Of a stretch of 35,783 bases of DNA, positions 25 through 29,707 are shown piece after piece. The notes under the pieces were generated by a model. That model made no database searches. It was not told the origin of the DNA and was given only the letters and a program-made list of their open reading frames with translations. The number at the start of each line of letters is the position of its first letter. The first letter of the stretch is position 1. The position numbers and the translations under genes were made by a program. This DNA is from Planctomycetota bacterium (GTDB lineage Bacteria; Planctomycetota; Planctomycetia; Gemmatales; Gemmataceae): assembly GCA_021325115.1 (NCBI GenBank), contig JAJPHU010000110.1, positions 1 to 35,783 on the forward strand, given 5' to 3'.

Positions 25-750
25 GTGATCCACGTCAGCAATTTGACCAAGTATTACGGTGATTATGCGGCAGTTCGCAACGTGTCCTTCGATGTGCCCA
101 AAGGCCAGGTGGTCGGCTTCCTCGGTCCCAACGGGGCCGGCAAGTCTACTACCATGCGTATCCTCGCCGGCTATCTCACGGCCACGTCGGGCCGGGCGAC
201 TATTGCCGGACTCGATGTATTTTGGCAGCCGGTCGAGGTACGGCGGCGCATCGGCTATATGCCGGAAAACTGTCCGCTTTATCCGGAAATGCGCGTCGTC
301 GAATATTTGCGTTTCCGCGCCGGTATCAAGGGGCTACATGGCGGCGAGGCCAAGAAGCGCGTCGAATACGTTCTCGATCGCTGTTGGGTACGGGAGGTTC
401 GCCGGCAGCTCATTGGCACCTTGTCGAAAGGCTATCGCCAGCGTGTCGGCCTGGCAGACGTGTTGCTCAACAATCCGCCGGTGTTGATTCTCGATGAGCC
501 GACGGCAGGACTTGATCCGGGCCAAATCCGCGAGACGCGCAAATTGATCCGCGAGCTGGGGCAGGAACACACCATCCTGCTGTCCACGCATATTCTCTCT
601 GAAGTGGAAGTGACGTGCGATCAGGCCATTATCATCCACCGCGGCCAAGTCGTCGCCAGCGGCCGGCTCGTCGATCTGAAACCGGAAAATCAAAGCCTGG
701 AAGAAATGTTCATTGACTTAATTGAACGCGAAGCCGTGGTTCGTGCGTAG
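25..750 (+). CDS. ABC transporter ATP-binding protein (GldA-like)
   Basis: Walker A GPNGAGKST, signature-like LSKGYRQRVGLADVLL, Walker B VLILDEPTAGLD; GTG start preceded by aggaggagg SD-like sequence at 11-19. Confidence 0.93.
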   Translation: MIHVSNLTKYYGDYAAVRNVSFDVPKGQVVGFLGPNGAGKSTTMRILAGYLTATSGRATIAGLDVFWQPVEVRRRIGYMPENCPLYPEMRVVEYLRFRAGIKGLHGGEAKKRVEYVLDRCWVREVRRQLIGTLSKGYRQRVGLADVLLNNPPVLILDEPTAGLDPGQIRETRKLIRELGQEHTILLSTHILSEVEVTCDQAIIIHRGQVVASGRLVDLKPENQSLEEMFIDLIEREAVVRA

Positions 751-755
751 AGAAA

Positions 756-805
756 CCAGCCCGCCATGCCCGCAGCGGCTATCCTTTGCGGGCACGGCAG
801 GCTGG
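756..805. repeat. 19-bp inverted repeat in the intergenic gap of the ABC operon
   Basis: CCAGCCCGCCATGCCCGCA (756-774) versus TGCGGGCACGGCAGGCTGG (787-805): 17/19 complementary. Confidence 0.8.
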
Positions 806-818
806 TGGAGAAAGGCAT

Positions 819-1883
819 ATGTTCAACAATCTCAGCCTCAACGGGCGCGAATGGCTGACGCTAACACTGCTGATCGTCCTCCTCGTCAGCGCGGCACTTG
901 GTCTGGTGTGGATGGCAGTCGGTCTGTTTCGCGCGCGCAGCTTAATTCGCCGTGAATTCAGCGCCTATTTTCTGTCACCGATCGCCTACGTGGTGCTGGT
1001 CGTTTTTCTGTTCGTCACGGGCGATCTGTTCGCCACCACGCTGGGTCTCTTAACGGCCAAGGGGCCAGTGGGCACGGAATCGCCCATGCAGACCATGTTC
1101 GGCGATCGGCTGTTTTGGCTGGTGTTTCTGTTCATTCCGCCGCTGTTGACCATGCGACTATTCGCCGAAGAGCGCAGCAGCGGCACGTTGGAAATGCTCA
1201 TGACGGCGCCCCTGCGCGATTGGCAAGTTGTGTTGTGTAAATATCTGGCTTGTCTGGCATTCTATACCGTGTTATGGCTGCCGACCTTGCTCTATCTGCC
1301 GGCCTTGCTCGGCGCTCAGGCACCGGTTTTCCATAATGCCTGGACGGCCCAGAGTATTTCGTTCGTCGCCGGGCTGGCGTGCATGCTGATCGGTCTGATG
1401 CTGTTGTTGCCGCACCTGGGTACGATGGCGCGGCTGGTATCGCTGACGCTGATCGTCCTAGGCGGTGCAGCGGCCGGCGCCGGCGGTTGGCTGCACTATC
1501 ATGCTGAGGGACCGCATTTATTCGAGGTGCCCGTGTTGCTCGATCCGTATCCGGTGCTGTGGACCTATGCGGGTATGTTCCTGGCCGGGGCGATGTTTCT
1601 GGCCATCGGTCTGTTTATCAGCAGTCTGGTACGCAATCAGATGGTGGCAGCCATCCTCGCCCTGGCAGTCGGCCTGGTCTTCATCGGCAGCGGCTTTTGG
1701 CGGCCAGAGTTGGCCGGCTCAAATCTCTACAACCTTGTCTACTTTTTCAGTGTGCCGCTGCATTTTGACCGCGCCTTCACACGCGGCTTGCTGGATACGC
1801 GCCCCCTTATCCTGTACGGCAGTACGGCCCTGTTCTGCTTGTTCCTCACGGTTCGTAGTCTGGAGGCCCGACGATGGCAATGA
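819..1883 (+). CDS. ABC-2 type transporter permease (GldF-like)
   Basis: Multiple TM segments; RREFSAYFLSPIAYVVLVVFLFVTG and RLFAEERSSGTLEMLMTAPLRDWQVVLCKYLA are typical of GldF/ABC-2 permeases; ATG at 819 favoured over the upstream alternative start at 786, which lies in the inverted repeat. Confidence 0.9.
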   Translation: MFNNLSLNGREWLTLTLLIVLLVSAALGLVWMAVGLFRARSLIRREFSAYFLSPIAYVVLVVFLFVTGDLFATTLGLLTAKGPVGTESPMQTMFGDRLFWLVFLFIPPLLTMRLFAEERSSGTLEMLMTAPLRDWQVVLCKYLACLAFYTVLWLPTLLYLPALLGAQAPVFHNAWTAQSISFVAGLACMLIGLMLLLPHLGTMARLVSLTLIVLGGAAAGAGGWLHYHAEGPHLFEVPVLLDPYPVLWTYAGMFLAGAMFLAIGLFISSLVRNQMVAAILALAVGLVFIGSGFWRPELAGSNLYNLVYFFSVPLHFDRAFTRGLLDTRPLILYGSTALFCLFLTVRSLEARRWQ

Positions 1884-4741
1884 CCTCCTGGTTATTCTGG
1901 TCGCGCCTGCATTTTTTGGTCCGCCTGCTCGGCTTGACTGGCGGCTTGCTCGCCTGCGGTGCTGGCGTCTTCGCTGCTGTGCGTGGCGAGTTCCGTGCTC
2001 TCCACGCTGCCGCTGACTTGCCACAAGCCTGGGACACCGGCACGGCCCTGGTGCAAACTGCCTGGCAAGCGCCGCAACAGAACCTGGCCGTGCTCCTGTG
2101 CCTGGCCGGCGCAGCGGCAGCGCTGTTTACGCTACTCATCGAGTTGCTCGTGATTCTCGCCTTCACCGCGACGCGCCGTAGTGCCTTCGGGTTCAATGCC
2201 GTGGTGCAGGGCATCTTGGCCGCCATCGCGCTGGTGGCGATCAATCTGTGGTCGTATCATCACTTTGTCCAGGTGGACTTCACACGCGATCGGCAATTCA
2301 CATTGCCGGAAGAAATTCGCAACGATCTGATCCAGCTGCATCCGGGCAGTCAAACCACCATTATTGTCTACAATCGCCACAAGGTCTTCGGCTTGATGCC
2401 GGACAAGCCGCAAGACGATTACGATTCCGCTGCCGAGCGCAAGGTCATCGAGAAAGTCCACGATCTGGTCGAACAATTCCGCACCATCGGTCCGCACATT
2501 CGAGTGGAAGTGCTCGATACCCAAGCGCGCGATTACAAATTCAAAGAACGCCTCCAAGAGGTGACAGAAACAGTGGCGAGCGGGGTTGCAGCAGCATCCC
2601 GAGTGAGCGAAGATGCCGAGATGCTGCGCAAAATGATCGAAGCCGCTCCGGAAAATAGCTTATTTTTCTGTGGCCGGGAGAACGACAAACTGCGTGTCCA
2701 ACAGCTGAGTTTCAACGACTTCTATCTCCTGGACAAAACGTTGTCGCAAGACGATCACGACGGCCGCGGCAATCTCGTTTTGCTTTATCAGGGCGTCGAG
2801 CCGTTCGCCCATCGCATCCTGCGGCTGGGTGAAAAGAAGCCACGCATCGCCATCGCCACCATCCATGAAGTGCTTTCGACCGGCAGCCAGCGCGACATCG
2901 GCCTGCGCGGCCTGCGCAACGCTCTGGAGGCGCGCGGCTTCGACGTTACGGACATCATCTTGAAGAAAGAAGGCAATGGCCCCCTTGGTTTGGAACCAGC
3001 TGTCTATTCGCTTGAGGAAAGCACTCTGGAGGGTTTGAAGCGCACGCAGCGGTTCTACGAGAACGATCTGGAGAAATTGCAAAAAGCTCGCAAGGAAACG
3101 GAACAGGAACGCGCCGTCTGGGAAAAAGCAGCTGAAGACGAAAAGACGCGGGCATCGCTGTTGAAACAAATCACCGATCAGGCGGTGAAGCGGGCCCAAG
3201 ACTATGCCCAGCAGGTCCAGCTAGTGGATGCGACGATTCAGCAGTATCGCCAGGCGTTGCTTAATCCGCCTTCGGATGCTGCCAAGGTGCGCTTGCAGCG
3301 GGAGTTGGCCCAATTGCAAGAAATCAGACCGCAATTAGCTGAATTGCGTGATCTGTGGCAAGACGCCATCACCGAGAGTGCGGCTCGCGATAAGCTGCTA
3401 CGCCGGGTCATCCGGGAGAACGTAGAAGATCTCGATGAGGATCTTCAGCATCTCGACCAGGCCCTTTCGGATTATCGGCAGCGGCTGGCGGCGACGCGAG
3501 CCGACATCGCCAAGATGAACGAGCCGAAGCTGGAAGAGCAACGCCGCATGACCGACCTCAAGGCCAAGCTGCAACGCTTGCTGGCGGATTGTGATTTACT
3601 GATGGTGCCGCGCATGACGCTGCGTAATACGGCCAACCGCTTCAGTAACATTGCTCCGCAAGTTTATCCCCTTGATCCGGCGCAGGTGGAGGCGATCAAG
3701 GAGTTCCTCAAAGCGGGCAAACCGATCTTGGCCTGTTTCGGTCCGCTGAATTGGCCGCAGGAAATCGGCATCGACGAGCCGCGGCCGGATGGCCTGGAAG
3801 AGCTGCTCACGCAGTTGGGCGTGAAGATGCTCAAACAAACGGTGCTGTTCGATGCCGAAGAACAGGGCTTCGCCGAGAATCGCGCCGGCCTGACCATCGC
3901 CGGTGCCAGCGTCGAAATCCCGCCGTTAATTTGGGACTGGCGCGCGCGCGACAGTCTGCCGCCGGGGAGCATGGACATTTCTCGTCCCCCCAATCGCATC
4001 CGTGCGGCCCTTCGCCTGATGGCGCGCGGCCTGGGCAAGGAAGAAGCGCTGGACATTCGCATCCGTGATCCGCGTCCGGTCTACTATGTGCCGCCTGAAC
4101 CACCCAGCCTGCGTCCTCTGGCCGTCGCCTCCCTGGCCGCGCCGGCGCAGCCCAACTGGACGGCGCTGATGCTGTCTTTGAGTGCACTCCAGCGAGCGCT
4201 GGATACCGCTGCCGAGCAACTGCCTATGGACCCGGTTTTCCTTATGACCAGTCCGCAAAGCTGGAATGAGGATCAGCCTTTCCCCACCGATGGCCGTATT
4301 CCCCAATTCGAGCAGCCGCAGCGCGATCAGGACAAGCGCAAGCAGCTAAAGCCGGCCGTCACAGGACTGGAGACGCGTCGTCGGGGACCGTTTCCCATTG
4401 GGGTGGCCGTGGAAACGACGTTGCCGCCCGACTGGTATGCCAGCGCAGCGGACAAACCGGCGCGAGTTCGCTTGGCAGTCATCGGCCAAGGCGGTTTCTT
4501 CACCGGCAAGGAACTGCCGGCGGCGCAAGAAAAATTGTTTGTCCAGACCATCAACTGGCTACTGGGCCGCGACGATCGTTTGCCGCGCGACGAACATCTG
4601 TGGAGCTATCCGCGCGTCAACGAGGCCATCCCTCCTGATTCGCCGACGGAATACTTGTGGTTGTGGGGCGCTCGCCTGGGTTTGCCTGTGTTATTTCTTT
4701 ATCTTGGGTTTGTCGTCGTGCTGTTCCGGCGCTTGCGATAA
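1874..4741 (+). CDS. Gld-type ABC system auxiliary protein (GldG-like) with long central coiled coil
   Basis: Two N-terminal TM segments, VDFTRDRQFTLPEEIRNDL / IIVYNRHKV motifs, C-terminal TM; overlaps the upstream permease stop; central Glu/Lys/Gln-rich heptad region. Confidence 0.82.
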   Translation: MAMTSWLFWSRLHFLVRLLGLTGGLLACGAGVFAAVRGEFRALHAAADLPQAWDTGTALVQTAWQAPQQNLAVLLCLAGAAAALFTLLIELLVILAFTATRRSAFGFNAVVQGILAAIALVAINLWSYHHFVQVDFTRDRQFTLPEEIRNDLIQLHPGSQTTIIVYNRHKVFGLMPDKPQDDYDSAAERKVIEKVHDLVEQFRTIGPHIRVEVLDTQARDYKFKERLQEVTETVASGVAAASRVSEDAEMLRKMIEAAPENSLFFCGRENDKLRVQQLSFNDFYLLDKTLSQDDHDGRGNLVLLYQGVEPFAHRILRLGEKKPRIAIATIHEVLSTGSQRDIGLRGLRNALEARGFDVTDIILKKEGNGPLGLEPAVYSLEESTLEGLKRTQRFYENDLEKLQKARKETEQERAVWEKAAEDEKTRASLLKQITDQAVKRAQDYAQQVQLVDATIQQYRQALLNPPSDAAKVRLQRELAQLQEIRPQLAELRDLWQDAITESAARDKLLRRVIRENVEDLDEDLQHLDQALSDYRQRLAATRADIAKMNEPKLEEQRRMTDLKAKLQRLLADCDLLMVPRMTLRNTANRFSNIAPQVYPLDPAQVEAIKEFLKAGKPILACFGPLNWPQEIGIDEPRPDGLEELLTQLGVKMLKQTVLFDAEEQGFAENRAGLTIAGASVEIPPLIWDWRARDSLPPGSMDISRPPNRIRAALRLMARGLGKEEALDIRIRDPRPVYYVPPEPPSLRPLAVASLAAPAQPNWTALMLSLSALQRALDTAAEQLPMDPVFLMTSPQSWNEDQPFPTDGRIPQFEQPQRDQDKRKQLKPAVTGLETRRRGPFPIGVAVETTLPPDWYASAADKPARVRLAVIGQGGFFTGKELPAAQEKLFVQTINWLLGRDDRLPRDEHLWSYPRVNEAIPPDSPTEYLWLWGARLGLPVLFLYLGFVVVLFRRLR

Positions 4742-4756
4742 AATGCGGTTTCTGAA

Positions 4757-4790
4757 CGGGCGAGCAGGGCGTGTCAACGCCCCGACGGCC
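4757..4790. repeat. GC-rich palindromic repeat (GGCGAGC..GTGtcAAC..CCCG family)
   Basis: GGGCGAGCAGGGCGTGTCAACGCCCCGACGGCC; shares pattern with the reverse complement of 23010-23039. Confidence 0.6.
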
Positions 4791-4855
4791 TCTATTGGGG
4801 CATTCCCCTGCCCCGCTTGCCAAATGGGAAATCGCTTTTCAGAGGAGATCGCCAC

Positions 4856-7800
4856 ATGAATCTCAAGACGACTTTCATGCTGCTGGTGCTGGCCGGCGCT
4901 GGCGTATTGTTATGGTGGTATGGCAATCCGCCCTTGCCGCCTGCTTTGGATCTCGCTCCGCGCCCGGCTGCTGTCCAGGAGAAAGGCACACGCGACTTTC
5001 TGGAGGCGCTGCATCCGGACAAGATCCAACGCCTTGAGATCCATGCACCCAGCGGTATCACCGAATTGACTCACAAAGCAGATGGCCAATGGGGACTTCC
5101 GGGCAACTGGCCCGTTCGCCGTCTGGAAGTCGAACAGCTTGTCGACTTGCTTACGAACTTGCGTTCGCGTTTCCAGCCGCAGCCTCTTCACGATGACAAG
5201 GATTTGCTGACTTTCGGACTGGCTCATCCGCCTGTCACGGTAGCGATCCGCACCGAAGGCGAAGAGCATACGCTGGCTTTCGGAGAAGCACAGAGCGACA
5301 ATCTGGAAAATCGCTTCTCCCGCGACACCTACGTCCGTCTGGATAAAAAACCGGAGGTAGTGCGTCTGGCGCCGGGCCTAATCGCCGCGCTCGATAAACC
5401 GACCGATTACTACCAGGAGCGGCGCCTTTTCGAGAAGGAAACCATCAGCGGCGAGGATCGCCGCGATACCGTCGAGCAATTGCACGCGCGGAGCCTGACC
5501 ATCGAAGAGAAGAAGACGGCTGGCGTGCGCTTCACCGTGGTGCGTTCGGGCAAGTCCTGGAAAGAGGCGGAGTTGGCCGAGCCGGTACGCGATCGTCTCG
5601 ACGACGAGGCGCGTAAGGCGCTGTTGGCCGGTGTGCTCGATCTGTGGGCTGAACAATTCGTACCTGCCGGCAGCGGCGGCGTTTCGCCGTGGCTGTGGCA
5701 CGTCCATGCTTGCTGGGATGCCGCTTCGCTGGCTACCGACTTGTTCTTCGCCACACAAGGCGGCCTGCTGGTCCGCGCCGGCTTGACCAATCCCGAACGT
5801 ATCATCATAGCTAAAAATGATAGAGGCGATACGGTTACTCTTCTTATCGGTTCTGTCTCCAGTCGCCGTCAGCGCCTGGCGCCGGCGCCGCAGCCGCCGG
5901 GCATGTTTGGGAGCATGTCGCAGCAACGCCTGACGACCGTGACGGAAGAATATCGCTACGCCAAATTGCAATACAACGATCAGATCTTCGAGATCAAGGC
6001 CGATAAGCTCAAAGACATATTCGTCGCCCTCGATAAGCTGCGCGATAGCCGCATCGCCCGCTTCAACAGCGCCGACGCCCGCCGTGTCGAAATCCAACAC
6101 GGCGACGAAGCAATCGTCCTGGAAAAAGACAAAGACAACTGGAAGCTCGTCAAACCCTTTAGCGCCGAGGCCGACAACAGCAAGGTGACGGACCTGCTAA
6201 CCAAGCTGTCCGACCTGCAAGCGCACGGCAAAGATATTATCGATAAAGACGATCCTAAAAAATATGGATTCGACAAGCCAGCTATAGTGAAAGTCACCAT
6301 TGAGGAAGAAAACAAGGGGGAGGACCGACATCCCGCCGGTTCCACCGAGAAAAAGACGCGGACGCTGACCGTACGTGTCGGCAAGCATGACACGGACAAG
6401 AAAAAATTGTACGTCATGGCCGACGATTGGCCGCGCATCAATGCTGTGGACGATAGTCTGGCACCTCTGATCCAGCGTTCGGCATTGGCCTATCGCGGCA
6501 AGCGCTTGTTCGATTTCAACGCCGCCGATGTGGCCAAAATCACCATTGACAACCAGGGCCAAAAACTGACACTCGAGCATGATAAAGATTCTTGGCATCT
6601 TATAAGTCCGGTTAAGGCAGAGGCAGATACGGCACGGGTCGATCAACTCCTTGCCGACTTGGGGCACCTGGAAGCGGCTGAATTCGTCACAGAGGAGCCG
6701 AAACAAAACGAGTTGGAAGCTCAGTATGGCCTCGGCAAACCATCGATCACGGTTCGCATCGAATTCACGGACAAGAAAAAGCCGGCCAAGGAAGTGCATG
6801 TCGGCAAGGCACGCGGCGGCAAGAGCGGCTATTTTGCCCGCGTGGCTGATGGCGGGCCAGTCTTCGCCATCAACGAGGAGTTGCACAAGCAGTTGACACG
6901 CGACTCATTGAGCTATCGGCCACAAACGCTGTGGCAATTGCTGCCAGAGGAAATCGAATCGCTGCGTGTCCACAAGGCGGGACAGAAAGAATACACCCTA
7001 ACGCGCTCCGATAAGGAGTGGAAGATCAGCGGTCCTTTCGAAGCGCAGGCTTTTGGCGAGAGCGTGCAGAAAATGACAGCGGAGTTGCTCGCACCAAAGG
7101 TCGAAAACTACATTGCCCACGAGACGAAGGATCTGGCGGAGTACGGTTTGGACAAGCCGGCACTGACCGTCCACCTCAAGCCCGTTCTTGCGAAAAACGA
7201 CAAGGAGCATACGCTGCTAATCGGCAAGCCGGTGCGTTCCCACGCAGAGCGTGGGAACGCGGCGGATTCATACTATGCCAAGCGTGGCAACGATACAGCG
7301 ATATTTACAATTAGCGCTGCCCTTGTCCGCGCCGCCGACCGCGGAGCCCTCGATCTGCTCGATACCAAACTTTTGAGTCTCGATACAGCAAAGGTGGAGC
7401 GCGTACGTTCGCAAACGGGCGACCAGTCGTTGACACTGGAGCGTTCCCACCCGGAGGGAGGAAACGAGAAGGCTGGCTGGCAAGTGACAGAATCGCCGGC
7501 AGGTGCGTATCCGGCCGACACCGAGGCAGTGGCATCGCTAAGCTCCGTATGGGCGAACTTGCGCGCCCAGCGTTTCGCCGATTATGGCAAAGGCGTCGAA
7601 TGGGCGAAATATGGGCTGGCCAAACCGGCTGTCCGCATCACCGTGCGAGCGGGAAAGGATGAGCATGTTCTCGCTCTGGGCAAGCCGGTCGAAGGCCAAC
7701 CGGGTGCGCGTTATGCCCGCATCGATCAGGGGGTGGGAGTAGCCGTGCTACCGCCGGAGACGACTCGTTTGATGGAGCGCAGCTATCTCGATTACGTCAA

Positions 7801-9121
7801 GCATGATCTCCTGAAATGCGATGCTGCTGCGGTTACGGCGCTCCAGCGCCGCATGGGAGCGAAAGATTTAGAAGTTGCCAAGAAGGACAATGGCTGGAAC
7901 ATAGTCAAGCCTCTCAAAGAGAAAGCTGACGATCAGGTAATGCAGCAATTGTTGCAGCAACTTTGCAATCTACGCGCCGAGCAAATCGCCGCTTATCCTT
8001 ACCCTCGTTCTCACACGGAGCGTGGGAACGAAAGGGATGCGTTCGGACTGGATAAACCATCGGCCCTCGTTACGATCCAGCTGAAACGTTCTCGCACAGA
8101 GCATGGGAACGAAGGGGATGGACCGAGTGAACACATCATCAAGTTGGGTAAGCTAGCAGGCGAAAGCGGCGAGCGTTTCGCTTTGGTGGACGATGGCAAA
8201 GTGGTAGCTGTGCTGCCAGCGTCGCTATCGGAACAGCTGGTGAGCGCGCCGTTGGCTTTCCGCGATCGTACTATCGCTCACTTTGGCGAGGCTGACCGTC
8301 TGCAATTAGATCGCGGGCCGCGCCATGCTGTTTTCCGCAAAGTTGAGGGTTCGTGGAAACTGACCGAACCGCTGCAAGGCGACGCTGAGCAAGATCTGCT
8401 CGATGATTTTCTTGGCCGTCTCACCCGGCTGCGCGCCGCTGCCTTGGTGGCCGAAAAGCCCGATACGGACACCTTGAAAAAGTATGGACTCGATCGTCCC
8501 GAAGCGCAGTGGCGCGTGCAATCGGGTGATAAGGAAGTGCTGAACTTGCTCGTCGGCAACAAGGAAGCGAAAGGTGAACGGCGCTATGCCAGGCTAGCCA
8601 GGGGCGAACTTGTGTTCCTGCTCGATTCGCACTTGAGTCAGAAGGTGCTCGATGAATATCGACCGCGCACCGTGTGGACGCCACCACTGGATGCGGTGGA
8701 TATTGAATCTCTGAATTATCGCTATCACCGTGCTTCGTTTTTGCTGGAGAAAACCGGTTCGACCTGGCAGGCGACAGGCAAGCCGGACGCCAAGATCAAT
8801 ACGGCGACGGTCGAAGACACACTGGCAGCGCTGGCTGGCCTGAAGCTGAGCCGCTACGCCGTGGACAAGGACGCCAACCTGGCCTTGTTTGGACTCGATA
8901 AACCAGAGCTGATCCTGGAAATTGCCACACGCTCCGGCAAGCGCGTGCTGCACATTGGCAATGGAGAAAGTAACTCCAAGGGCCGCTATGCTCGTGTTCC
9001 CGATAATGACCGCAGCGGCGTTTTCGTGCTCGACGAAGAGACGTGTACACGGCTCCTGCGCGATTTGAGCGCGTTCGGCCGGCCGCCGGCACGATCAACT
9101 ATGCAACCGGTGGCGCATTAA
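4856..9121 (+). CDS. DUF4340-repeat protein (1421 aa)
   Basis: N-terminal TM (MNLKTTFMLLVLAGAGVLLWWYG) and eight recurring FGL/YGLxKP motifs with HTLxxGKP strands; ATG at 4856 after agaggag SD-like sequence. Confidence 0.88.
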   Translation: MNLKTTFMLLVLAGAGVLLWWYGNPPLPPALDLAPRPAAVQEKGTRDFLEALHPDKIQRLEIHAPSGITELTHKADGQWGLPGNWPVRRLEVEQLVDLLTNLRSRFQPQPLHDDKDLLTFGLAHPPVTVAIRTEGEEHTLAFGEAQSDNLENRFSRDTYVRLDKKPEVVRLAPGLIAALDKPTDYYQERRLFEKETISGEDRRDTVEQLHARSLTIEEKKTAGVRFTVVRSGKSWKEAELAEPVRDRLDDEARKALLAGVLDLWAEQFVPAGSGGVSPWLWHVHACWDAASLATDLFFATQGGLLVRAGLTNPERIIIAKNDRGDTVTLLIGSVSSRRQRLAPAPQPPGMFGSMSQQRLTTVTEEYRYAKLQYNDQIFEIKADKLKDIFVALDKLRDSRIARFNSADARRVEIQHGDEAIVLEKDKDNWKLVKPFSAEADNSKVTDLLTKLSDLQAHGKDIIDKDDPKKYGFDKPAIVKVTIEEENKGEDRHPAGSTEKKTRTLTVRVGKHDTDKKKLYVMADDWPRINAVDDSLAPLIQRSALAYRGKRLFDFNAADVAKITIDNQGQKLTLEHDKDSWHLISPVKAEADTARVDQLLADLGHLEAAEFVTEEPKQNELEAQYGLGKPSITVRIEFTDKKKPAKEVHVGKARGGKSGYFARVADGGPVFAINEELHKQLTRDSLSYRPQTLWQLLPEEIESLRVHKAGQKEYTLTRSDKEWKISGPFEAQAFGESVQKMTAELLAPKVENYIAHETKDLAEYGLDKPALTVHLKPVLAKNDKEHTLLIGKPVRSHAERGNAADSYYAKRGNDTAIFTISAALVRAADRGALDLLDTKLLSLDTAKVERVRSQTGDQSLTLERSHPEGGNEKAGWQVTESPAGAYPADTEAVASLSSVWANLRAQRFADYGKGVEWAKYGLAKPAVRITVRAGKDEHVLALGKPVEGQPGARYARIDQGVGVAVLPPETTRLMERSYLDYVKHDLLKCDAAAVTALQRRMGAKDLEVAKKDNGWNIVKPLKEKADDQVMQQLLQQLCNLRAEQIAAYPYPRSHTERGNERDAFGLDKPSALVTIQLKRSRTEHGNEGDGPSEHIIKLGKLAGESGERFALVDDGKVVAVLPASLSEQLVSAPLAFRDRTIAHFGEADRLQLDRGPRHAVFRKVEGSWKLTEPLQGDAEQDLLDDFLGRLTRLRAAALVAEKPDTDTLKKYGLDRPEAQWRVQSGDKEVLNLLVGNKEAKGERRYARLARGELVFLLDSHLSQKVLDEYRPRTVWTPPLDAVDIESLNYRYHRASFLLEKTGSTWQATGKPDAKINTATVEDTLAALAGLKLSRYAVDKDANLALFGLDKPELILEIATRSGKRVLHIGNGESNSKGRYARVPDNDRSGVFVLDEETCTRLLRDLSAFGRPPARSTMQPVAH
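6318..6346. repeat. In-frame palindromic element, GGnAGGACnGACATnCC family
   Basis: GGGAGGACCGACATCCCGCCGGTTCCACC aligns with reverse complement of 20875-20904; encodes GEDRHPAGST. Confidence 0.5.
7234..7260. repeat. In-frame palindrome, copy 1 (RSHAERGN)
   Basis: GCGTTCCCACGC-AGA-GCGTGGGAACGC, perfect 12-bp arms. Confidence 0.95.
7442..7466. repeat. In-frame palindrome, copy 2 (RSHPEGGN)
   Basis: CGTTCCCACCC-GGA-GGGAGGAAACG, same 11-3-11 layout with two stem mismatches. Confidence 0.8.
8006..8030. repeat. In-frame palindrome, copy 3 (RSHTERGN)
   Basis: CGTTCTCACAC-GGA-GCGTGGGAACG. Confidence 0.9.
8087..8111. repeat. In-frame palindrome, copy 4 (RSRTEHGN)
   Basis: CGTTCTCGCAC-AGA-GCATGGGAACG. 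Confidence 0.9.
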
Positions 9122-26728: not shown

Positions 26729-29626
26729 CTACAACTGTTCGAGCAATTCCGGCGGCGCCTCGCGGGTGCCTTTGCACCTGGGATACTTGGCGCAGCCGAG
26801 GAAATAGCCCTTGCGCGAGCTGCGCAGTTTCATGGGGCCGCCGCATTCCGGACACGGTTCGTCCACTTTTACGTCCGGCACGGTCTTTTTCGGCGGTGCC
26901 GGCAGCCGATCTTTCAGCTTCTCTTTCATCTCCGGGGGCAGCGGCTTGGTGCTGCGGCACTTCGGGTAGTTGCTGCAACCCAGGAACGGGCCGCGAAAGC
27001 CCTTCTTGACCGCCATCGGCGAACCGCACTTGTCACAGACGATGCCGGTATCGATCGGCTGGATGGGATTGCCCTCGGCGTCCACGTCCTTGGCATTTTT
27101 GCACTTTGGATAGCCGGTACAGGCCAAAAATGGGCCGCGGCGGCCCTGGCGAATCACCATCGGCTGGCCACACTTCTCACAGATGTGCTCGGTCGGCACA
27201 GCGGACAGAACCGGCTTGCCGTCCGGGCCAAAGCTCATGGTCGTCTTGCATTCGGGATAGCCGCTGCAACCGAGGAACGGACCAGATTTGCCCATGCGTT
27301 GGAGCATGGTCTTGCCGCAGGTCGGGCACGTGTATTCCGTCTCGACCGGCTGCGGTCGGGCCTCTTCGCCCTCTTCCGGCTTGATGTAATTGCAAGGCGG
27401 ATCTTCCTTGTAGCCGGAGCAGCCTACGAAGTAGCGATGTGTCTTCTTGCTGTAGTTGCGGATTAGCGGTCTGCCGCATTGCGGGCACATCTCGCCGGTT
27501 TCAACGCCGCCGCGCAAGGTCGGCATTTTATCCTCAGCTGCCTTCAGCGCTTCGGAGAACGGTCCCCAGAACTCGTTGAGCACTTCGTTGTAGCGCGCTT
27601 GTTTCGTCTCGATCTGATCGAGTTCTTCCTCCATGTGGCTGGTGAATTTCAGGTCCATGACTTTGGGGAAATGCTCGATGAGCAGATCGGTGACTTCCTT
27701 ACCGATCTGGGTGGCGTAAAAGCGACGATCCTTTACCTCGATGTAGCCGCGCTCCGGCGAGGTGATTTTGTGAATGGTGGTGGCATAGGTGCTGGGCCGG
27801 CCGATGCCTTCTTTTTCCAGGGCCTTAACCAGCGAGGCTTCGTTGTAGCGTGGTGGCGGCTGGGTGAAATGCTGGCTGGCGGTCAGGTCGAGACGAACGA
27901 GGTCCTGCTGTTCGCGCAACGGCGGCAGAGTGGCGTTCTCCTGCTTGCCGGCCGGCGGCAGCACCTTGCGATAGCCGTCGAATTTTAGCACCTTACCCTG
28001 GGCCTTGAACAACCCCTTACCACTCCCGGACGGTCGCGGCTCCGAGGGAGGCGCGGCCTCGACTTCGACATTGGTGACAGCGAAGACGGCCGGGGCCATC
28101 TGACTGGCGACAAAGCGCTGGTAGATGAGCGTGTACAGCTTCAGTTGATCGCCGTGCAGGCCGAGCTGGGCGACGCGCTCCGGTGTGTACGACAGATCCG
28201 TTGGGCGGATGGCCTCGTGGGCCTCTTGAGCGCTCTTACCGGAGGCGTAGGTATGCGGCTTGTCCGGCAGGTAGGCGGAGCCGTAGTTGTCGTGGATGTA
28301 AGCGCGAACGGCTTGCAGCGCTTCGGCGGAAACGCGCGTGCTGTCGGTACGCATGTAGGTGATGAGGGCTACAGAACCTTCGCTGCCCAGATCGACGCCT
28401 TCATAGAGACGCTGGGCTGTCTTCATAGTGCGCTCGGCGTGAAAGCGCAGACGCAAAAACGCCTGCTGCTGAAGCGTGCTGGTGGTGAACGGTGCGTGCG
28501 GCTTCTCGGCGCGGTCCTTCTGCTCCAGCTTGGCGACGGTGTACTTGGCCTGTTCGAGCAAACGCGCGATGCGCGTTGCTGTCTCTTCGTTGGCGGCCTC
28601 GAACTTTTTGCCGTCCCACTCGGCCAATTCGGCGAGGAAGGCAAGACCCTGAGCCGAAAGTGTTAGCGACGACCCTGCGGCCGGCGCGGACGCTTCCGGC
28701 TCGTTTGCCGGAGCGCCTTTGGTTTTCGCCAGCACCACGGAGAGCGGTTTCGGCTCCATTGGCAGCTCGGCGTCTGCCGGCGCCAGCAGCGCCGTGATCT
28801 TCCAATATTCCGAAGGCACGAAGGCCTCGATTTCGCGCTCGCGATCGACCACCAGACGCAGGGCCACCGACTGCACGCGGCCGGCGCTGGAACGCCGGGC
28901 CACTTTCTTGCTCAACAGGCCACTGAGCGGAAAGCCAACGACGCGATCGAGAATGCGCCGTGCCTCCTGAGCTCGAACGCGGTCCATGTCGATCTTGCCC
29001 GGATGAGCCAGGGCGTGCTGTACCGCTGCGCGCGTGATTTCGTTGAAGGTGATACGGAAAACGCGCGGATCGTCGTCTAGCCCCAGGGCGTCCTCGATGT
29101 GCCAGGCAATGGCTTCGCCCTCTCGGTCGGGGTCGGTGGCCAGGTAAATGTGATTTGACTTGGCTGCTTCACGCTTCAATTCGGTCAAGATCTCCTTGGC
29201 GCTACGGCGGCGTCCGGCGCCCTTGCCGTTGCTCTCAGCGCGATCGACAACCACATAGGTCGGCACCCAGCCGGCGTCGATGTCGATGCCCGCCACTTTC
29301 TCGCCCGGTTTGCGGCGGCGCGGCAAATCGCGGACGTGGCCATAGCTGGCCAACACTTTGAAGTTGCTGCCGAGATACTTATTGATGGTCTTGGCCTTGG
29401 CTGGCGATTCAACGATGACGAGATCTTGCTTACCTTTGCTGTCGCTCTTCCTCGTTGCCAAACTCTGTTTGGCAACATCGCGGCTGCTCTTTTTCCTCGT
29501 TGCCAAACTCTGTTTCTGTTTGGGAGCGTTACTCAAGCGCGAGCGGCTTTTGGTTGTCGCTTTCTTGGTGCGGCTGACCGTTCGCGGAGCTTCCTCTTGG
29601 ATGGCTTGCTTCTTGCGTGCGGGCAC
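26729..29626 (-). CDS. topA: DNA topoisomerase I with five C-terminal zinc ribbons
   Basis: LVIVESPAKAKTINKYLG, LATDPDREGEAIAWHI, YMRTDSTRVS, GRPSTYATTIHKI; five CxxC...C zinc ribbons; GTG start at 29626 after cagggaga, excluding an ORF extension encoded by an intergenic repeat. Confidence 0.95.
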   Translation of the reverse strand: MPARKKQAIQEEAPRTVSRTKKATTKSRSRLSNAPKQKQSLATRKKSSRDVAKQSLATRKSDSKGKQDLVIVESPAKAKTINKYLGSNFKVLASYGHVRDLPRRRKPGEKVAGIDIDAGWVPTYVVVDRAESNGKGAGRRRSAKEILTELKREAAKSNHIYLATDPDREGEAIAWHIEDALGLDDDPRVFRITFNEITRAAVQHALAHPGKIDMDRVRAQEARRILDRVVGFPLSGLLSKKVARRSSAGRVQSVALRLVVDREREIEAFVPSEYWKITALLAPADAELPMEPKPLSVVLAKTKGAPANEPEASAPAAGSSLTLSAQGLAFLAELAEWDGKKFEAANEETATRIARLLEQAKYTVAKLEQKDRAEKPHAPFTTSTLQQQAFLRLRFHAERTMKTAQRLYEGVDLGSEGSVALITYMRTDSTRVSAEALQAVRAYIHDNYGSAYLPDKPHTYASGKSAQEAHEAIRPTDLSYTPERVAQLGLHGDQLKLYTLIYQRFVASQMAPAVFAVTNVEVEAAPPSEPRPSGSGKGLFKAQGKVLKFDGYRKVLPPAGKQENATLPPLREQQDLVRLDLTASQHFTQPPPRYNEASLVKALEKEGIGRPSTYATTIHKITSPERGYIEVKDRRFYATQIGKEVTDLLIEHFPKVMDLKFTSHMEEELDQIETKQARYNEVLNEFWGPFSEALKAAEDKMPTLRGGVETGEMCPQCGRPLIRNYSKKTHRYFVGCSGYKEDPPCNYIKPEEGEEARPQPVETEYTCPTCGKTMLQRMGKSGPFLGCSGYPECKTTMSFGPDGKPVLSAVPTEHICEKCGQPMVIRQGRRGPFLACTGYPKCKNAKDVDAEGNPIQPIDTGIVCDKCGSPMAVKKGFRGPFLGCSNYPKCRSTKPLPPEMKEKLKDRLPAPPKKTVPDVKVDEPCPECGGPMKLRSSRKGYFLGCAKYPRCKGTREAPPELLEQL
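28019..28051. repeat. In-frame topA repeat encoding PPSEPRPSGSG
   Basis: Minus strand cctccctcggagccgcgaccgtccgggagtggt; imperfect palindrome. Confidence 0.55.
28650..28705. repeat. In-frame full stem-loop in topA related to the 9122-9177 hairpin
   Basis: ACGCTTCCGGCTCGTT (28690-28705) is identical to part of the right arm at 9122-9177; opposite arm GAGCCGAAAGTGTTAGCGACG (28651-28671) pairs 16/21. Confidence 0.8.
29448..29528. repeat. Two palindrome copies in the topA N-terminal extension
   Basis: TTCCTCGTTGCCAAACTCTGTTT at 29448-29470 and 29493-29515; first continues as perfect GTTGCCAAAC-TCT-GTTTGGCAAC. Confidence 0.9.
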
Positions 29627-29657
29627 TGCCCATCTCCCTGTTGAAGTTCTAAGTTCA

Positions 29658-29707
29658 GAGTTCGGAGTTCTGCGCTTCAAATTCTCTTGCTCAAGAACGC
29701 CGAACTC
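29658..29707. repeat. Inverted repeat upstream of topA
   Basis: GAGTTCGGAGTTCT (29658-29671) versus AGAACGCCGAACTC (29694-29707), 13/14 paired. Confidence 0.75.

Follow-up and report, generated by a model that had tools for sequence, protein, structure and literature searches.

In-frame palindromic repeats in protein-coding genes of a Planctomycetota bacterium: a probable REP/REPIN-like mobile element

Four palindromes within a DUF4340 gene

The stretch of DNA analysed here (hereafter the window) comprises 35,783 nt of a Planctomycetota bacterium of the Gemmataceae (GCA_021325115.1, contig JAJPHU010000110.1, positions 1-35,783), whose genome, labelled G000, is a 5.6-Mb draft of 383 contigs with 93.7% completeness. 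On the forward strand of the window, positions 4817-9121 hold an intact open reading frame (ORF) of 1434 aa with eight DUF4340 stretches (PF14238), and within it lie four copies of a 25-nt palindromic repeat, all in forward orientation and at codon phase 0. Copy 1 (CGTTCCCACGC-AGA-GCGTGGGAACG; 7235-7259) encodes RSHAERGN (aa 807-814), copy 2 (CGTTCCCACCCGGAGGGAGGAAACG; 7442-7466) RSHPEGGN (aa 876-883), copy 3 (CGTTCTCACACGGAGCGTGGGAACG; 8006-8030) RSHTERGN (aa 1064-1071), and copy 4 (CGTTCTCGCACAGAGCATGGGAACG; 8087-8111) RSRTEHGN (aa 1091-1098), the last having an extended 3' flank in common with copy 3. An earlier note on this DNA had described four in-frame, same-phase copies with these translations, and both points were borne out by pattern search and frame assignment, as was the lack of a stop in all six frames of copy 1 by direct translation. 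The palindromic layout that it proposed holds fully for copy 1, the sole perfect palindrome of the four (12-3-12 when taken as 7234-7260), whereas the others are imperfect: of 11 core pairs, the degenerate copy 2 keeps 9, copy 3 keeps 9 plus one G-U pair, and copy 4 keeps 7 plus two G-U pairs. The chance expectation of copies in the window was 0.00 (100 dinucleotide shuffles).

All four octapeptides are absent from three same-genus orthologues (79, 63, and 63% identity; copy 1 is absent in L031, L032, and L033) and, as far as they can be aligned, from more distant family members. Relative to the 79% orthologue, the four palindrome sites are the four largest insertions in the gene, with net differences of +7, +7, +8, and +8 codons. 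Orthologues were also checked for RSHxERGN-like residues conserved without the palindrome, an outcome that would have told against insertion; both palindrome and residues are missing at all four sites.

In an AlphaFold2 model of residues 700-1140 (pLDDT 88.8, pTM 0.81), the inserts correspond to model residues 108-115, 177-184, 365-372, and 392-399, and each of them falls in a predicted loop between secondary-structure elements, with copy 2 beginning at the last residue of a strand. Values of pLDDT below 50 occur only at model residues 110-115 and 396-401, overlapping copies 1 and 4; they extend over most of the copy 1 loop and over the end of copy 4, between strands. Copy 2 occupies a beta-hairpin loop (LTLE[..]W) in place of KKGDV/KKNNV, and the copy 3 loop precedes an FGLDKP segment, where orthologues have YP-AQDL/AKDL. 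The earlier proposal that the copies fall in loops is therefore upheld by alignment and model, with loop-exact placement. The four sites are non-equivalent positions, in different loops, of the DUF4340 fold and are therefore not copies of one duplicated unit, so duplication of a DUF4340 unit as their source was rejected.

Genome-wide distribution and reading-frame bias

The earlier note had called for a search for further copies in the genome, and the element proved not to be confined to the DUF4340 gene: with up to three mismatches, the palindrome pattern gave 59 forward and 47 reverse matches (palindromes being counted on both strands), and the reversed pattern, used as a control on the 5.6-Mb genome at the same threshold, gave none. 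A census of 1.22 Mb fetched mainly around copies (about a fifth of the genome; coding density 0.82; genes called with a simple caller of our own) contained 122 copies at up to four mismatches, 52 of them intergenic and 70 in called genes. The palindrome occurs both between and within genes, which is the behaviour of a coding-tolerant palindromic mobile element, similar to that of the Rickettsia palindromic elements (RPEs).

The in-gene copies are distributed very unevenly among the six frames. At up to four mismatches (n=70), 36 are in forward phase 0, 11 in reverse phase 0, 7 in forward phase 2, 7 in reverse phase 2, 5 in reverse phase 1, and 4 in forward phase 1; the corresponding numbers are 34, 9, 4, 6, 4, and 4 at up to three mismatches (n=61), and 23, 8, 4, 6, 3, and 4 when one copy per gene is counted (chi-square p=1e-6). 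More than half of the in-gene copies (34/61, up to three mismatches) thus read RSHAERGN/RSQAELGN, with the forward phase 0 consensus RS(H/Q)(A/T)E(R/L/H)GNE. Reverse phase 0, which has the same phase but yields an AL instead of an AE peptide (RSHALRGN), is rarer than forward phase 0 (p=0.011), and the two orientations are about equally frequent in phases 1 and 2, indicating that there is no general strand bias. Mismatches in forward phase 0 copies favour third codon positions (15% versus 6-7%), a preference not seen in intergenic copies (11% versus 9-10%; p=0.028). Codon-phase base composition was rejected as a cause of the phase bias, because G occurs more often at codon position 1 (0.363) than at position 3 (0.324) and a preference for insertion after G therefore cannot produce it. 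No loss of pairing was detectable in coding copies, with arm pairing of 78.5% in forward phase 0, 79.1% in the other frames, and 80.2% in intergenic copies.

Several further genes hold two to four copies. Some copies read in hydrophobic frames do sit in hydrophobic or signal-like segments (L083, L110, and L076). Complementary flanks lengthen the arms of some intergenic copies (L068:9819, L082:2060, and L095:1022) to 15-19 bp, as though these had gone into a hairpin or terminator; over all copies, complementarity of the flanks was not significantly above that of shuffled flanks (p=0.10), and insertion into pre-existing hairpins was rejected.

Empty sites in other genes

For in-gene copies, the flanking sequences were joined, searched against the three same-genus genomes, and then aligned. 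A same-genus orthologue was found for 28 in-gene sites, including the four in the DUF4340 gene, and 23 of these are clean insertions with an empty orthologue site; outside the DUF4340 gene, the element is cleanly absent at 19 of 24. In ATP sulfurylase, for example, VALV-RSHAEQGN-EEIVGSL stands against VALV-NPQ-NAIVGSL in the orthologue, and other hosts of clean insertions include a histidine (sensor) kinase, a cytochrome-c protein, and an RND pump. The copies found in genes have been inserted recently, in loops or in variable stretches of the protein. The net gains, whose lengths carry alignment uncertainty at 63-79% identity, are mostly below the 25-27-nt element (commonly 9-24 nt, e.g. +9, +12, +15, +18, +21, and +24); insertion thus seems to be accompanied by partial loss of the native loop, of which about 0-18 nt appear to be displaced.

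One copy, in L083 (VPTFRVGT), is present in the nearest relative and absent from the other two same-genus genomes, which shows vertical inheritance. Two hydrophobic-frame copies of G000, L083:1730 and L100:9246, look shared in place with this nearest relative, G002 (L288 and L264), the respective G000/G002 peptides being VPTFRVGT/VPTFRLGT and LIPMLRVET/LVPTLRLGM; the other two relatives were compared for L083 alone. Since the tested phase-0 copies are absent from G002, these two copies are likely older.

Element architecture, relatives, and neighbouring repeats

The core of the element is CTCGTTCCCANGC-NGA-GCNTGGGAACGAG, an 11-bp stem with a 3-nt loop and paired ends (CTCGTTC/GAACGAG), and the consensus contains no stop codon in any of the six frames. 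Of the features of tagged repetitive extragenic palindromes (REPs), neither an unpaired GTAG at the hairpin end, nor a CGTC tag, nor a CCA-type tail was found in the flank profiles of intergenic, forward phase 0, and other copies; the hairpin does not match CGTC-tagged REPs, with their 8-9 bp stem, 4-5 nt loop, and short tail, either. In the relatives G001, G003, and G032, most of the copies read lie between genes, and many are joined in -/+ pairs at a spacing of 78-124 bp, with inner hairpins, in the layout CTCGTTCCCACGC-TCC-GCGTGGGAACGCACG...inner hairpin...inner hairpin...GTGCGTTCCCACGC-GGA-GCGTGGGAACGAG. These genomes therefore have the two inverted hairpins at short spacing that characterize a REPIN (a REP doublet forming hairpins), and their element has the architecture of a REPIN but neither a GTAG nor a CGTC tag. 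In G000, just a few pairs were found and single hairpins dominate. Within the phylum, the element was detected in 13 of 294 genomes searched, mostly with 1-4 copies, and its occurrence within the family is patchy.

Most genomes of the family, G001, G003, and G032 among them, have genes with Y1_Tnp domains. A REP-associated tyrosine transposase (RAYT) was disfavoured as the driver, because G000 has only a partial Y1_Tnp domain and no hairpins lie beside the Y1_Tnp loci read.

Further arrangements of repeats within genes were also observed. On contig C3 of G000, a Y1_Tnp (REP-associated transposase-like) domain lies in frame between the in-frame palindromes GGCACAGGCTTTCTAGCCTGTGC / CACAGGCTGGAAAGCCTGTGCC, within a 777-aa open frame (L141:334-2664) that begins with a DUF1156 domain at its N-terminus. 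This frame also holds further in-frame copies of the same palindrome, which is nearly absent from the rest of the 1.22 Mb read, and of a PHPSPLPGGEG-type repeat; a methylase-like gene may here have received a complete REP-transposase-REP unit in frame. A single 1842-aa frame harbors three hairpins (L106:1104-1272), among them an inverted pair 92 bp apart with one more hairpin inside it; what is read in frame here appears to be a complete REPIN-like unit. Within the window, a sister palindrome with other arms (TGTTGCCAAACAGAGTTTGGCAACG; 29453-29477, reverse strand) lies within ORF 26729-29680 at phase 2, close to two occurrences of the peptide KQSLATR. Upstream of the DUF4340 gene, the forward-strand frames (window 25-9121, with that gene) include an ABC_transp_aux-like protein (weak Pfam match, below cut-off), and together with it they look like an ordinary gliding-type ABC transporter operon.

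Origin of the in-gene copies

We consider the gene copies to be single hairpins of a REP/REPIN-like mobile palindrome that has spread through the genome and repeatedly entered protein-coding genes (probability about 0.87), and the idea of a coding-tolerant element spreading into protein loops, raised in the earlier note, is well supported by the genome-wide copies and the empty orthologue sites. With six stop-free frames in the consensus, an in-frame insertion would leave the gene open. Purifying selection may then keep mainly copies reading RS(H/Q)AE(R/L/H)GNE, a charged, turn-like peptide that would be tolerated in loops, and selection on the translated product would remove disruptive copies, including those in the hydrophobic frames FPRRAWE and VPTQSVGT.

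Several observations weigh against this interpretation. No mobilising enzyme was found in G000, where the sole Y1_Tnp match is a partial domain inside another frame, and the hairpin is absent from the flanks of 18 loci with Y1_Tnp matches in relatives. The census was chosen mainly around copies, so its ratio of genic to intergenic copies is not unbiased, and the higher share of internal in-gene copies in G000 (24/55, versus 10/90 in the three relatives; up to one mismatch, p=1.3e-5) is measured against relatives represented by their best-scoring copies only. Four of the 28 sites with orthologues show no net length difference (L090, L093, L108, and L110) and may be old, degenerate, or coincidental. 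The codon-position mismatch test is marginal, and the hydropathy of flanking proteins did not differ significantly by frame (trend, p=0.16).

The strong bias in frame and orientation, the suggestive codon-position constraint, and the identical nonapeptide in unrelated proteins could also mean that the peptide rather than the DNA is the selected unit, with RSHAERGNE acquired adaptively as a functional motif (a binding, sorting, or processing tag). However, the palindrome is intergenic 52 times and present in all other frames, the copies in relatives are mostly intergenic and often hairpin pairs, the hosts are as diverse as cytoplasmic enzymes, membrane pumps, and kinases, and the sites are loops that orthologues leave variable, which makes this explanation very improbable. 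Assembly artefacts generated from repeat hairpins in the metagenome have still less to recommend them and can scarcely be credited: the source is indeed a 383-contig draft, but frames stay open at dozens of sites with net lengths of 3n, the copies differ among themselves, and an independent genome has one of them at the same place (L083 versus G002). Local duplication or gene conversion, by which one mobile insertion would have reached four sites in the DUF4340 protein, is unlikely, albeit with more in its favour. When the 25 nt are compared together with 12 nt of 3' flank, copies 3 and 4 match each other best (30/37, top of 120), and the presence of four copies in a single gene exceeds a rough Poisson expectation (P~1e-6; ~0.004 corrected for ~4600 genes), which lends weak support to the spread by conversion that the earlier note had also envisaged; yet the four sites lie in different loops of the fold, diagnostic positions separate copies 1 and 2 from copies 3 and 4, and several other genes likewise hold two to four copies.

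As to how such a mobile palindrome moves, mobilization in trans by an IS200/IS605-type Y1 transposase (RAYT/TnpA-REP), as for classical REPs and REPINs, is conceivable but doubtful. The REPIN-like inverted pairs in relatives and the wide occurrence of Y1_Tnp genes in the family are in line with it, whereas the untagged flank profile, the Y1_Tnp loci without the hairpin in their flanks, the want of a clear Y1_Tnp gene in the most copy-rich genome (a 93.7% complete draft), and the apparent deletion of target bases are not. The apparent partial loss of the loop is explained at least as readily by repair or recombination (template switching, microhomology) as by clean transposition. More speculatively, and with slightly less confidence than we give to the transposase, this lineage might have shifted a REPIN-like element from intergenic pairs to single hairpins replacing loops, in which case the 27-nt unit (nine codons, stop-free, polar in one orientation) would be selected as coding DNA and multiply as a harmless loop by loop-for-loop replacement rather than by ordinary transposition.

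Comparison with known systems and implications

Protein-coding mobile palindromes had so far been described chiefly in Rickettsia and in a small number of other bacteria. RPEs of 105-146 bp are palindromic mobile DNA found in frame in many unrelated proteins and also between genes, and both Rickettsia and Wolbachia are known to carry palindromic insertions in frame (PMC2229807, summarising Ogata 2000-2005). The planctomycete hairpin likewise enters many unrelated proteins in frame without loss of the gene and also occurs between genes, but it differs in phylum and sequence, the unit entering genes is only 25-27 nt (8-9 residues), the parent element in planctomycete relatives is a four-hairpin pair, and insertion seems to replace some target bases. 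Homology to the RPE families is unlikely given this length and the different phylum.

GTAG- and CGTC-tagged intragenic REPs are 20-40 bp hairpins that are mostly intergenic and often inverted dimers, sometimes lie in frame in genes, in several phyla (Opitutus, Rickettsia, and Thauera), and have families reported in Planctomycetes too; more than half of their intragenic inserts are dimers or grouped (BMC Genomics 2013, PMC3733652). Short hairpins, inverted dimers, and some in-frame copies are common to both, whereas the planctomycete hairpin, with its 11-bp stem and 3-nt NGA loop, has no GTAG/CGTC unpaired tag or CCA-type tail and its in-gene inserts are nearly all single. REPINs were defined in Pseudomonas fluorescens in a study of extragenic space that treated singlets as non-functional remnants (PMC3116915). 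Like the planctomycete element, they consist of two closely spaced inverted hairpins with a spacer between them, and singlets are also present; in the planctomycete, by contrast, single hairpins dominate, genes contain more than half of the copies read, and no linked RAYT was found. The PARCEL repeats of Mollicutes are reported to be short palindromic coding repeats spread among proteins as well, but as intragenic tandem repeats (PMC2996958), unlike the dispersed, single planctomycete copies. A literature search for the palindrome sequence itself found nothing relevant. The planctomycete family differs from the known ones in sequence, tag, coding-unit size, and single-hairpin state, and its behaviour is best read as analogous to that of RPEs and intragenic REPs.

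Collectively, these results show that palindromic insertion in frame, for which Rickettsiales are the best-known case, extends to a lineage of Planctomycetota, and they provide a quantified signature of selection in which one of six frames and one orientation are strongly preferred. In the relatives the hairpin has stayed mostly intergenic, so that the group lends itself naturally to comparing how extragenic repeats turn coding, and it also supplies recent loop insertions for which empty-site controls exist.

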